From positions 1 to 64,000 of the forward strand of contig QIAM01000044.1 of NCBI GenBank assembly GCA_003225555.1: a stretch of 64,000 nt of DNA, read 5' to 3'. Of the stretch, positions 2,329 through 24,247 are shown one piece after another. This DNA is from Acidobacteriota bacterium (GTDB taxonomy: Bacteria; Acidobacteriota; Terriglobia; Terriglobales; Acidobacteriaceae). The notes under the pieces are model-generated. The model did not search any database, was not told where the DNA came from, and saw nothing but the letters and a program-made list of their open reading frames with translations. A program made the position numbers and the translations under genes. Each line of letters starts with the position of its first letter. The stretch's first letter is position 1.

Positions 2329-2359
2329 CAGTGGTTAGTGGCCAGGGGTCAGTGGCCAG
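2329..2359. repeat. Heptad repeat array, CAGTGGN type
   Basis: About four copies of a 7-bp unit (CAGTGGT, TAGTGGC, CAGGGGT, CAGTGGC) fill the rplC-rplD spacer. It has no inverted arm, unlike the longer arrays of this type. Confidence 0.75.
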
Positions 2360-2369
2360 AGAAAATCGT

Positions 2370-3035
2370 ATGGCGACTATTGATATCTACAATTTGAGCG
2401 GGGCAAAGGTGGGGACGCTCGATCTGGCCGACGAGGTTTTTGGCGCGGTCAACGAAGACCTGCTGTGGGAAGCGGTGAAGCACTATCGCGCCGGGCAGCA
2501 CAAGGGCACGCACAAGACCAAGGGCCGCTGGGAAGTTTCCGGTTCGGGCAAAAAGCTGTGGAAGCAGAAGGGTACGGGGCGCGCCCGCATCGGATCGATC
2601 CGGTCACCACTGTGGCGGCATGGCTACACGGTCCATGGTCCGCAACCGCGATCTTACGACTACGCCTTTCCGCGCAAGAAACTTTTGGGCGCATTGCGCT
2701 CGGCTTTGGCGGCGAAGTTGGCCGACGGCAAGCTGATCGTGGTGAACGCGTTCGACCTGAAGGAGCCGAAGACCAAGGAATTCCGCAAGGCTCTAGACGC
2801 TTTGAAGGTGGATGCTACGGTTTTAATTGTCGAGGTGGCGAAGCACGAGAACCGCAATCTGGAATTGAGCGCGCGCAATATCGATGGGCTCGAACTGGTT
2901 CGGGGCAACGAAGTGCATCCCTATCATCTGTTGCGCTACGACCGCGTGATCTTTTCGCAGCCGGCGATTGAAAAGTTGCAGGTGTCTTTGAAGAGTTCAG
3001 GTTCGAAGCGGCACCGCAAGCACGCGGAAAGCTAA
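2370..3035 (+). CDS. rplD: 50S ribosomal protein L4
   Basis: L4 binds 23S rRNA with an extended loop that lines the exit tunnel; in Escherichia coli it also represses the S10 operon. The start is placed at ATG 2370 ([11 protein letters not shown]), because upstream codons are a translation of the repeat. The tunnel-loop signature [20 protein letters not shown] followed by [17 protein letters not shown] is intact. Length is 221 residues, typical of the family. It is followed by rplW after about 70 bases. Confidence 0.96.
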
Positions 3036-3103
3036 GGAGCCAAGAAGGCGACGGGGACTCCGCGGCGCCGGGTGAAGCATGAAAAAGCGGCGGAGGTAGC
3101 CTG

Positions 3104-3397
3104 ATGAAATCCGCATACCAGATCATTCGCCGTCCGGTGATTACTGAAAAGGGTTTGGCCATCAAGGAGAACCAGAACACGCTGGTCTTCCAAGTGGCTC
3201 CGAAGGCGACCAAGACAGAAATCAAGCAAGCGGTGCAGTTGATTTTCAAGGTGAAGGTGCATTCGGTGCGCACGGCCACCTATCCGGGAAAAGAGCGGCG
3301 GCGCGGGAAGTTTGCCGGCTACCGTCCGGACTGGAAGAAGGCTTATGTGCGGTTGCGGTCCGGCGAGAAGATGCCGGAGTACGCGCAGAATTTGTAA
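3104..3397 (+). CDS. rplW: 50S ribosomal protein L23
   Basis: L23 sits at the tunnel exit and is a docking point for trigger factor and SRP. It has 97 residues with the family opening YQIIRRPVITEKG and the basic loop KERRRGKFAGYRPDWKKAYV. A clear Shine-Dalgarno sequence, GGAGG, lies about 7 bases upstream of ATG 3104, in contrast with many genes here that follow repeat arrays. It is the fourth gene of the S10 block. Confidence 0.96.
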   Translation: MKSAYQIIRRPVITEKGLAIKENQNTLVFQVAPKATKTEIKQAVQLIFKVKVHSVRTATYPGKERRRGKFAGYRPDWKKAYVRLRSGEKMPEYAQNL

Positions 3398-3453
3398 GCG
3401 AGAAGCAGATTCCTCACCGGCAAAGAACGCCGGTTCGGAATGACAAAGAGTTT

Positions 3454-3490
3454 GAGCTAAGAGCTAGAAGCTTAAGAGCTAAGAGCTGAT
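3454..3490. repeat. Heptad repeat array, AGCTAAG type
   Basis: Degenerate AGCTAAG/AGCTAGA units end two bases before the rplB ATG. No Shine-Dalgarno sequence is visible between the array and the start. Confidence 0.75.
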
Positions 3491-3491
3491 T

Positions 3492-4316
3492 ATGCCAATT
3501 AAGACATACAGACCGACGACGCAGACCCTGCGCTACCGCACGACGCTCGTCAACGACGACATCACGACCCGGCATCCGCATAAGCCGCTGGTCGAGCCCA
3601 AACCGCGCACCGGCGGCCGCCGCAATTCGGGAGACACCACGATGCGATTCATCGGGGGTGGGCACAAGCGCAAGCTGCGCATCATCGACTTCAAACGCGA
3701 CAAGACGGGGATCCCCGCGACCGTGACCACGATCGAGTACGATCCCAACCGCTCCTCGCGCATTGCTCTGCTGGCCTACGCAGACGGCGAGAAGCGCTAC
3801 ATTATTCAGCCGGAAGGGTTGAAGGTCGGACAAAAAGTTGTGAGCGGTCCGGACGCCGACATCCTTGTCGGAAACGCCTTGCCGCTGCGCAATATTCCTC
3901 CCGGCACGCAGATTCACAATCTCGAACTGAAGCCGGGCAAGGGTGGACAGATGGTGCGTTCGGCGGGTGGTTCGGCGCAGTTGGTGGCGAAAGAACAAGA
4001 GTACGCGCTGGTGAAACTGCCTTCGGGCGAGACCCGCAAGATTTCGCAGAACTGCATGGCGACGATCGGCCAGGTGGGCAACATCGACCACGAGAACGTC
4101 ACCATTGGCAAGGCAGGACGCTCCAGATGGCTGGGAAAGCGTCCGCATAATCGCGGCGTTTCGATGAACCCGGTCGACCATCCGCACGGCGGTGGTGAAG
4201 GCAAGACTTCAGGCGGACGGCATCCGGTGACGCCCTGGGGACAGCCGACGCGGGGATACAAGACGCGGAACAACAAGCGGACGGATAAGTTCATCGTCAG
4301 CCGGCGCAGCAAATAG
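3492..4316 (+). CDS. rplB: 50S ribosomal protein L2
   Basis: L2 is essential for subunit association and peptidyl transfer. It has 274 residues, the usual length. The conserved C-terminal segment [21 protein letters not shown] carries the functionally important histidine in the PHGGGEG loop. The RNA-binding N-terminal half contains [28 protein letters not shown]. The start ATG directly abuts a heptad-repeat array. Confidence 0.98.
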
Positions 4317-23363: not shown

Positions 23364-23483
23364 AAGTTCTCTCGGGAATCTCCCAGCGGTGCGGGTGAGA
23401 CTTCATTCTAGAGACGGCAGCGGGTTGAGGCAAATCGTTGCGTAGAACCAGAGCTTCTCCGAGCTGGCAACGCTGCACCCCGT

Positions 23484-23513
23484 TTGTCTTTTTACCCCTC
23501 CCCGGCGTATATT
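23484..23513 (+). promoter_or_regulatory. Candidate sigma-70 promoter for rimP-nusA-infB
   Basis: TTGTCT (23484-23489) and TATATT (23508-23513) are spaced 18 bases apart and point toward rimP. The predicted start of transcription is near 23520, which would include the leader hairpin at 23563. Confidence 0.5.
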
Positions 23514-23562
23514 AGGGAATTGAGAACTGTTGTGTAGTAACCAGCATTTGGCGGAGCACACC

Positions 23563-23584
23563 AGTGGGCGCAAGCCCACTTTTT
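23563..23584 (+). promoter_or_regulatory. rimP-leader-like terminator hairpin
   Basis: AGTGGGC / GCCCACT stem with a GCAA tetraloop, followed by TTTT. Terminator-like hairpins of this GTGGGC...GCCCAC form in front of rimP-nusA-infB are known as the rimP leader, thought to be a NusA-responsive attenuator. Assignment here rests on position and shape. Confidence 0.65.
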
Positions 23585-23634
23585 ACTTTCGGCCGGTGGA
23601 CGGCCGGGCGGCTCGCCCCTAAGTGACTGGATTC

Positions 23635-24162
23635 ATGGCGCTTGACGTTGATCGCGTGCGGGAAATCGCGGAGCGTGTAGCGGCCTCCAGCGGTCTGGAA
23701 GTGGTTGACGTGGAGCTTCGCGGCGGAGGCAAGAGCCGCATGCTGCGCGTGTTTCTGGACAAGCCTGCGGCTGGCACCGATCCGCTGGCGGGAGTGACGC
23801 ACGAAGACTGCGCCAACTTCAGCCGGGAGTTTGGCACGATCCTTGATGTCGAGGATGCGATGTCCGGCGGGTCCTACACGCTGGAAGTTTCGTCGCCGGG
23901 GTTGGATCGGAAATTGACGCGGCCTGCGGACTTTGAGCGCTTTACCGGCAGCCGCATGAAATTGATGACGCGGCAGCCGGTGAACAACAACCAGTATTTC
24001 GAAGGCCGCCTGGAGAGTTTTCGCGACGGCCGTCTGACCCTGGACCTGAGCGTGGCGAGCAAGAAGTCGCGCAAGAAGATGAGTTCGGCAAGTACCGAGC
24101 AGCAGAAGATTGAAATTGAGTTCGCCAATGTGGAGAAGGCGAATTTAGTGCCGGAGATCTGA
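23635..24162 (+). CDS. rimP: Ribosome maturation factor RimP
   Basis: RimP assists 30S maturation. It has 175 residues from ATG 23635 (a GTG at 23623 is also in frame). Family features are GLEVVDVELRGGGKSRMLRVFLDKP, the CANFSREFG segment and SYTLEVSSPGLDRKLTRPADFERFTG, ending in a small Sm-like domain with an inserted Lys/Ser-rich stretch (SKKSRKKMSSAS). It is the first gene of the nusA operon, preceded by a leader hairpin. Confidence 0.93.
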   Translation: MALDVDRVREIAERVAASSGLEVVDVELRGGGKSRMLRVFLDKPAAGTDPLAGVTHEDCANFSREFGTILDVEDAMSGGSYTLEVSSPGLDRKLTRPADFERFTGSRMKLMTRQPVNNNQYFEGRLESFRDGRLTLDLSVASKKSRKKMSSASTEQQKIEIEFANVEKANLVPEI

Positions 24163-24166
24163 AGAA

Positions 24167-24247
24167 GTGGCCACTGAGCAGTGGCCAGTGGTCAGCAAGA
24201 TCAAGTTCGGCCGAAGGCCGAACACTGATCACTGATCACTGACCACT
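24167..24247. repeat. Heptad repeat array pair, CAGTGGN type, inverted
   Basis: GTGGCCACTGAGCAGTGGCC followed by AGTGGTCAG opposes CACTGATCACTGATCACTGA. The loop contains a perfect palindrome TTCGGCCGAAGGCCGAA (about 24207-24223). It lies in the rimP-nusA spacer. Confidence 0.83.

Follow-up and report, generated by a model that had tools for sequence, protein, structure and literature searches.

The DNA analyzed here, which we refer to as the window, is a stretch of 64,000 nucleotides from the contig QIAM01000044.1 of an Acidobacteriota bacterium of the family Acidobacteriaceae (GCA_003225555.1, a 4.42 Mb assembly in 114 contigs). It contains a ribosomal superoperon (approximately 1–18970) and the genes nusA-infB (24260–28733), with gene names assigned by homology and gene order. 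Many of the spacers between these genes are occupied by arrays of tandem repeats with a period of seven nucleotides, often as two arms complementary to each other, and these arrays are the subject of this work. The nearest named ribosomal operons belonged to metagenome-assembled genomes (MAGs) of Acidobacteriota, many of them Acidobacteriaceae or Candidatus Sulfotelmatobacter, and the closest locus (L011) had a coding nucleotide identity of 89.1% to the window. The comparative set consisted of 80 loci of named relatives with rplF and up to 10 kb at each side, which together with the window make 81 operons, and 1976 spacers were extracted from them.

At the threshold of our script we found 16 segments of period 7 in the window versus none in each of 20 Markov-1 shuffles, and the other periods between 2 and 30 gave 0–4 segments each, save period 14 (12 segments), which is a multiple of 7. 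Tandem Repeats Finder (TRF) recovered the same arrays, confirming those described in the initial annotation of this DNA. That annotation had also counted inverted arms in at least ten places. We found them in 13 spacers, located between co-directional genes at 8804–24247, where both sides hold an array and the two arms are complementary, with an ungapped Watson-Crick score of 11 or more. Ten of them were folded as RNA and gave z values between −3.36 and −7.25, with none of 200 shuffles folding as well. All coordinates that follow are on the forward strand. The hairpins of the AGCTGAN class are those of rpsH-rplF (9405–9487, with the left arm at 9405–9435 and the right one at 9457–9487, touching the ATG; score 21, z −5.21), rplF-rplR (10032–10106, arms 10032–10057 and 10081–10106; score 18, z −6.62), rplR-rpsE (10491–10562, arms 10491–10518 and 10535–10562; score 22) and rpmD-rplO (11394–11461, arms 11394–11417 and 11438–11461; score 18, z −6.43). 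The CAGTGGN class is found at rpsE-rpmD (11086–11177, arms 11086–11114 and 11149–11177; score 19, z −6.87), rpsM-rpsK (15862–15911, arms 15862–15878 and 15895–15911, with weak ungapped pairing; score 11, z −3.36), rpsK-rpsD (16370–16449, arms 16370–16399 and 16420–16449, located 5' of a conserved rpsD leader; score 22, z −7.25 for the whole spacer), rpoA-rplQ (18355–18455, arms 18355–18384 and 18426–18455; score 16, z −3.39) and rimP-nusA (24166–24247, arms 24166–24196 and 24217–24247; score 17, z −6.71). The AGCTAAG class makes up the hairpins of map-infA (14943–14992, arms 14943–14964 and 14971–14992; score 18, z −5.84) and rpmJ-rpsM (15397–15440, arms 15397–15413 and 15424–15440; score 11), and the CGACCAA class those of rpsN-rpsH (8804–8938, arms 8804–8838 and 8904–8938; score 27) and rpsD-rpoA (17138–17202, arms 17138–17167 and 17173–17202; score 16, z −6.06). 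The only match at gathering score in an Rfam scan of the window was one tRNA, with none on the hairpins; miRNA-like matches to the hairpins were weak, below the gathering score, and were taken as chance.

Other arrays of the window are single-sided. They are found at rplC-rplD (L3-L4; 2329–2359, CAGTGGN class, without a long second arm; TRF and period scan), rplW-rplB (L23-L2; 3454–3487, AGCTAAG class, start side only; TRF), rplB-rpsS (L2-S19; 4410–4443, AGCTGAN class, start side only; TRF and period scan), rpsC-rplP (S3-L16; 6035–6066, AGCTAAG class, in a spacer of 41 nt and without a second arm; TRF) and infA-rpmJ (IF1-L36; 15234–15265, AGCTGAN class, without a second arm; TRF and period scan), plus a single GGTCGTT array at 19606–19634, located 3' of the open reading frame (ORF) 19105–19602 (TRF). 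Further copies had been proposed at four places. Three of them were found, i.e., the array at 19606, a single GGCTGAA array at 36402–36427 (TRF and period scan) and the region proposed at 45629–45783, where an array of TCAGCTTC with period 8 and one of GCTGANA with period 7 (45753–45786) lie within 45626–45786 and pair weakly across ca. 120 nt (TRF; score 11). The fourth, at 28739, consisted of only about two CAGTG units and had no TRF row.

Of the 1976 spacers, 564 showed period 7 and 119 showed period 8, versus 5 and 1 after one shuffle of each spacer. The period of exactly 7 bp claimed in the initial annotation is therefore not strict; among the classes with period 8 are GTTTCAAG, AATTGGGT and ATTGAGCG, and the window itself has the period-8 array at 45631. 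Arrays were present in 675 of the 1483 spacers that are 30 nt or longer, 368 as hairpins, 158 at the start side only and 149 at the stop side only, and when spacers of at least 50 nt were considered, 75 of the 81 operons had at least one array. For the comparisons we used thirteen class names, picked by hand after reading the spacers. In a search of 41 genomes, all but one of the 25 that belong to the genus had the AGCTGA pattern, versus 3 of the 16 others. Within the family, 25 of 150 genomes had the TTGAAAC pattern of period 8, the window's own genome being without it. In the ribosomal spacers of 20 further genomes, arrays were found in the genera g1, g10 and g13, and there were none in the spacers examined of genus g11. 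In other families, eight of nine genomes had none to few arrays, and these have short spacers. However, the ninth genome (L132) has arrays in seven spacers, made of quite different units (e.g., ATTGCGG/CCGCAAT and GAGGACT/AGTCCTC). The same architecture, with unrelated units, has therefore arisen or spread more than once.

The enrichment of the 7-bp period predicted for the whole genome was clear. Overlapping matches to patterns of three units in the window's own genome, with one mismatch permitted (none for AGCTA), were 73 for AGCTGA, 41 for CGACNAA, 136 for CACTG and 17 for AGCTA, versus 0, 0, 1 and 0 for the reversed patterns. In two genome samples (G000, whose contigs were chosen from contigs with earlier matches, and G014), arrays were found in 17/134 and 14/122 of the co-directional spacers of 40–300 nt (31/256 in total, ca. 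12%), in 2/27 and 5/31 of the convergent ones (7/58, also ca. 12%) and in 2/27 and 0/26 of the divergent ones (2/53). The same simple codon-usage script used for the gene calls in these samples gave arrays in 11 of the 21 spacers of the ribosomal operon of the window. The initial annotation had stressed their location within highly expressed operons, but with ca. 12% of the co-directional spacers of the two samples bearing them, confinement to ribosomal operons has to be rejected, and the equal frequency in convergent spacers also rejects a restriction to co-directional ones. Inside called genes, segments of period 7 were rare (3/326 and 0/317 in the two samples). The arrays are located in co-directional and convergent spacers and rarely in divergent ones, and hence at places where a transcript either ends or runs on. 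Their presence in convergent spacers points to a role at the stop side rather than a purely start-side one.

The placement of the arrays is very regular. In 168 two-armed elements, the distance from the stop codon to the left arm had a median of 4 nt (interquartile range 2–6, 95th percentile 13) and that from the right arm to the start a median of 10 nt (interquartile range 5–17), with median loop, arm and spacer lengths of 26, 30 and 104 nt. In the ribosomal operon, a cassette begins right behind one stop codon and runs almost up to the start codon of the following gene. Each of the ten class patterns that we scanned had a single polarity. Words in reverse-complement orientation were found 274 times in the left half of the spacers versus two in the right half, and the two exceptions came from the L18-S5 spacer of the window, which in our comparative scripts was taken from an in-frame TAG of rplR (10423–10425) and hence extended into this gene. 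This TAG is located at the position of a tyrosine that precedes a conserved HGR motif in 79 of 81 loci scored (window included), and is perhaps an error of the MAG assembly or real. Forward words appeared 385 times in the right half versus 45 in the left half. Of these 45, 34 have a reverse-complement core upstream and are thus right arms that begin before the midpoint, nine are partnerless and two are apparently opposite. In the own genome we counted by eye at least 25 groups of opposite-strand matches within 300 bp (7 for AGCTGA, 5 for CGACNAA and at least 13 for CACTG), and all of them were inward-facing, with none outward, among the matches listed (100 of the 136 for CACTG).

Array-bearing spacers fold better than their dinucleotide-shuffled controls. 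The median z was −3.9 for spacers with arrays (150 of 515 folded), −1.02 for spacers without arrays in those genomes (150 of 426), −1.05 for the spacers of genus g12 (all 90) and 0.09 for coding windows of equal lengths (150 of 928), and values below −2 were found in 118, 36, 32 and 7 of them, respectively; this comparison covers the relatives and the spacer types other than five with other conserved leaders. Array-free spacers hence also fold beyond chance, in part through other palindromes such as GGACAGCCGAGGGCGGCTGTCC, which favors the view that these spacers tend to hold a hairpin of any make, although palindromes that disperse without any function would give a similar picture. GGACAGCCGAGGGCGGCTGTCC is a second dispersed palindrome, present in the window at 1037–1058, 1479–1500, 56050–56071 and 56145–56166 and with 76 matches in the genome (up to two mismatches), some as inverted pairs ca. 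95 bp apart. Another hairpin family was found in L012, whose S3-L16 and S17-L14 spacers each contain a long palindromic element with arms of GGCGCGCC and TCTCGC, the two being nearly identical.

The stem of the hairpins is formed by cores of 5–7 nt, complementary between the arms and spaced by one or two largely unconstrained positions. Among 1217 spacers of 55–210 nt, 201 had at least two core words in each half, and in 179 of them the left and right arms shared the class, with 22.6 expected from the margins; the claim of one class per spacer holds at this level. Without resort to classes, pairing between the own halves of a spacer was stronger in 805 of 1134 cases than after halves had been exchanged between genomes. 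In the AGC-type classes the free column holds the mismatches in 161 of 236 cases, no other column exceeding 45 of 248, and its Watson-Crick pairs (75/236 versus 56 expected) show a mild excess only. The compensation between arms that had been anticipated is thus seen between species at the level of the class, but stops at the core of the class and does not extend to single units. Neither of the two outcomes that the initial annotation had named as refuting was thus obtained, and the mRNA hairpins that it proposed, with processing, stability or else selfish spread behind them, are supported in part. The idea that the arms are copied unit by unit or compensated pair by pair was unsupported within classes. 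This would be expected if the complementarity of the cores were kept while the free position drifted, or if turnover of the units after the birth of the array reshuffled the arms.

These elements change fast and are replaced wholesale, both arms together. Between L010 and L013 (94.5% coding identity) the whole hairpin differs in 11 of the 15 printed spacers, and between L040 and L053 (92.4%) in 8 of 14 (both by reading). The agreement in class at the same spacer does not climb with relatedness, with values of, e.g., 164/409 at ca. 80% coding identity, 32/78 at ca. 88%, 11/23 at ca. 90% and 0/6 at ca. 92–94%. We also mapped the classes on a FastTree phylogeny of 78 of the 81 operons. At all nine spacers tested, each with only 9–24 operons that have a two-armed element there, the number of class changes was close to that of shuffled labels (lowest P 0.11), without a phylogenetic signal of vertical inheritance of the class. 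In terms of mutual information, the class is tied strongly to the spacer (z 22) and more loosely to the genome (z 5.7).

Some of the hairpins adjoin conserved sequences that look like leaders. At 16450–16507 there is a conserved rpsD leader, GGGA-GAAGGG...CCYGTAAACC, a string matched in 52 of the 54 spacers examined and with no Rfam match. At the third pair of its outer stem, as drawn, 43 sequences have C-G and 9 have T-A, but at the second pair 33 of the 52 have T.T. We take it to resemble the GAAGAAGG...GUAAA part of the S4-binding region of 16S rRNA, and by this analogy it may be an S4 autoregulatory leader. The rpsK-rpsD (S11-S4) spacer is 543–546 nt long in L038, L058 and L084 and 610 nt in L063, and may contain an extra small gene. 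A conserved rplE leader is located at 7855–7898 (CTCACGAACCGGTA...CCGAAACCGTGAGAGGAAG). The repeat hairpin of some relatives (L012, L013 and L053) has its right arm within the loop of this leader (the median distance from arm to start being 42 nt at this spacer), so that the two helices would either cross in a pseudoknot-like manner or be mutually exclusive. Two more conserved stretches common to the relatives, before rpsH (8941–8999) and before rpoA (17203–17313), adjoin hairpins that change and are candidate ribosomal leaders.

Our tentative interpretation, in which our confidence falls slightly short of even, is that the arrays are transcribed hairpin cassettes of gene ends, similar to repetitive extragenic palindromes (REPs), that act through their structure. 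The feature kept would be a strong mRNA hairpin, its sequence being immaterial. By holding a long untranslated spacer in a folded state, such a hairpin could prevent the loading of Rho, RNases or stray ribosomes, and it may stabilize the upstream cistron. The repeats would provide a cheap route to making and remaking the stem, and the free position of each unit would leave the palindrome imperfect, so that the chromosome would tolerate it. Several observations weigh against this interpretation. One-sided arrays make up 307 of the 675, and 2 of 28 spacer types had no advantage for their own halves (L4-L23, 9/24; L36-S13, 7/14). Within a class the own arms had no advantage over swapped ones, matching better in 89 and worse in 78 of 170 cases (p 0.99). 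The mismatches, with 210 G-U versus 174 A-C (p 0.07; a share of 0.547 versus 0.555 in swapped arms), show no clear preference for the pair that only RNA tolerates. Five of the six genomes of the sister genus g12 lack arrays although their spacers are long (the sixth has four), so the arrays are dispensable. In the AGCTGA elements a Shine-Dalgarno match of at least 4 nt was absent before the start in 21 of 32, and right arms that often replace this signal could hinder initiation. The REPs of Escherichia coli located at 15 nt or less from the stop codon lower translation (PMC12306157), and by analogy an element with this effect would be odd to retain in ribosomal genes.

A mutational by-product or selfish spread is a serious rival, which we consider somewhat less probable. 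Replication slippage would make the arrays of 7–8 nt units at gene ends, template switching at imperfect palindromes or copying between loci would add the second arm, and selection would act only against harm. The match of the arms by class and not by unit, the similar numbers of one-sided arrays at both ends, the shuffling of the classes relative to the tree, and the presence of identical classes at many loci of a genome, with a dependence of class on genome as well as on spacer, would all be expected this way, and heptanucleotides are over-represented in many bacterial genomes, for which polymerase slippage has been proposed (PMC4679880, PMC4692102). However, this explanation fits poorly with the tight anchoring to stops and starts and the consistent polarity, the rarity of the period within genes and of arrays in divergent spacers, the class being tied more to the spacer than to the genome, and the folding beyond chance of spacers that have no arrays at all. 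We regard as improbable an active process by which arrays of short period are written into gene ends and the two arms of a hairpin are simultaneously rewritten to a new class, outpacing the divergence of species, with the cell using the hairpins as sequence-independent insulators between cistrons. It would be a templated, template-switching or RNA-mediated DNA-writing activity, and the 7–8 nt step would be its footprint.

It is also unlikely that the hairpin is a translational device that hides or presents the downstream ribosome-binding site (by coupling or by looping out the spacer), with the last unit of the right arm serving as Shine-Dalgarno. The right arm ends a median of 10 nt 5' of the start, and suitable motifs exist just 5' of the start: AAGGA in 12 of 28 CGACC elements, with the AAGGA-containing CCAAGGAC as the last unit in 7 of the 13 printed CGACC-class rplF-rplR elements (by eye), and GAGGT in 8 of 15 CACTG and 7 of 25 TTGAAAC elements. 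An AGC-type word was found in the ribosome-binding site of rplF in 72% of 29 array-free orthologs, and 95% of 22 arrays there are AGC-type. Yet convergent spacers, which have no downstream start, are equally array-bearing (7/58), and structure just 3' of the stop codon correlated negatively with coupling (PMC12548453). The Spearman coefficients for seeding by the ribosome-binding site in four class groups were 0.52, 0.37, 0.02 and 0.62, with only the last at p < 0.05; such seeding was suggestive at a few spacers but weak overall, and one-sided arrays had no start-side bias. We consider it very unlikely that the mosaic of classes comes from homologous recombination, with species exchanging ready-made spacer alleles that are perhaps old and functional. 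The repertoire of classes is particular to each spacer, and loops that share class and spacer resemble each other more from genome to genome (score of at least 12 in 30 of 443 pairs versus 7 of 1091 from different spacers and different genomes), but same-class pairs had no excess identity in the 30–240 nt of flanking coding sequence, so that simple allele transfer by recombination was not seen, which already weakens this explanation. Sites acting at the DNA level, bound by a protein or a topoisomerase, or intrinsic terminators are extremely unlikely. The stems are palindromic in DNA too and wobble pairs are not clearly favored, but many unrelated cores substitute for each other at one site, which makes sequence-specific binding unlikely. 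As for intrinsic terminators, in the window spacers that were read directly the right arm is followed by the leader or the start of the next gene and not by a run of U, and the stems are located inside essential operons, so that these are largely excluded.

Little in bacterial genomes is as conserved as the operons of ribosomal proteins, and yet in this group of soil Acidobacteria many of their spacers are rewritten wholesale between species with genes 92–95% identical. Since the hairpin and its placement are kept, this amounts to a natural swap experiment, with one site, many sequences and one architecture. Two old questions become testable this way. One is the reason for the abundance of heptanucleotide repeats in some bacteria, the other whether it is the structure alone of intercistronic hairpins that counts.

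Heptanucleotide repeats of cyanobacteria are known as STRR. Like these, the arrays described here are dispersed, with a period of 7 bp and several families per genome; in the STRR literature at hand, which does not include the primary STRR papers, we met no systematic inverted-arm hairpins at operon spacers. Three tandem heptanucleotides are mentioned for Calothrix (PMC4692102). The GGGAATC and GGGGA(C/T)T repeats of Xanthomonas and Nostoc are also heptameric intergenic arrays near gene ends, described as G-rich quadruplex formers (PMC4692102), unlike the complementary arms found here. In marine Beggiatoaceae, TAACTGA direct repeats are located a few nucleotides before starts, also inside ribosomal-protein operons and mostly without a canonical ribosome-binding site (PMC4679880). 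The acidobacterial arrays are similarly start-proximal heptamers present in ribosomal operons, but they are of many classes, often paired as hairpins, and also anchored to stops (149 one-sided arrays at the stop versus 158 at the start). REPs and bacterial interspersed mosaic elements (BIMEs) are dispersed transcribed intergenic hairpins, some of them within 15 nt of the stop codon (PMC12306157, PMC3733652), a location for which a recent survey cites ribosome stalling (PMC12306157). The hairpins described here share the dispersal, the proximity to the stop (median 4 nt) and the presence in co-directional and convergent spacers, and differ in that the stem is made of tandem 7–8 nt units of replaceable sequence. 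No GTAG/CGTC tag was seen by eye at the foot of the hairpins in the printed spacers, no systematic scan being made. The own genome has four matches to Y1_Tnp, the family of RAYT, the Y1 transposase that mobilizes REP/BIME. For the Acidobacteriota, our searches of an open-licence library gave no experiment on these organisms and no paper on such arrays; many short repeats have been reported in Solibacter, and the passages concerned do not describe arrays of this type (PMC3174227).

The closest known system is the P6b stem of the tRNA-Leu (UAA) group I intron of Nostoc, where degenerate 7-nt motifs (TDNGATT and NNTGAGT) make up complementary arms, in two classes, one per genotype, with replacement of the whole class repeated independently on the tree (PMC4476775). 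Heptanucleotide stems with class switching were thus already described, and to this extent the unusual character that the initial annotation attributed to the arrays has to be qualified. As in Nostoc, the acidobacterial stems consist of degenerate 7-nt units in both arms (some classes having a period of 8), and the classes replace each other with both arms together. However, instead of one intronic site and two classes, there are here many intercistronic and gene-end sites and at least ten classes, in another phylum and with no group I intron involved.

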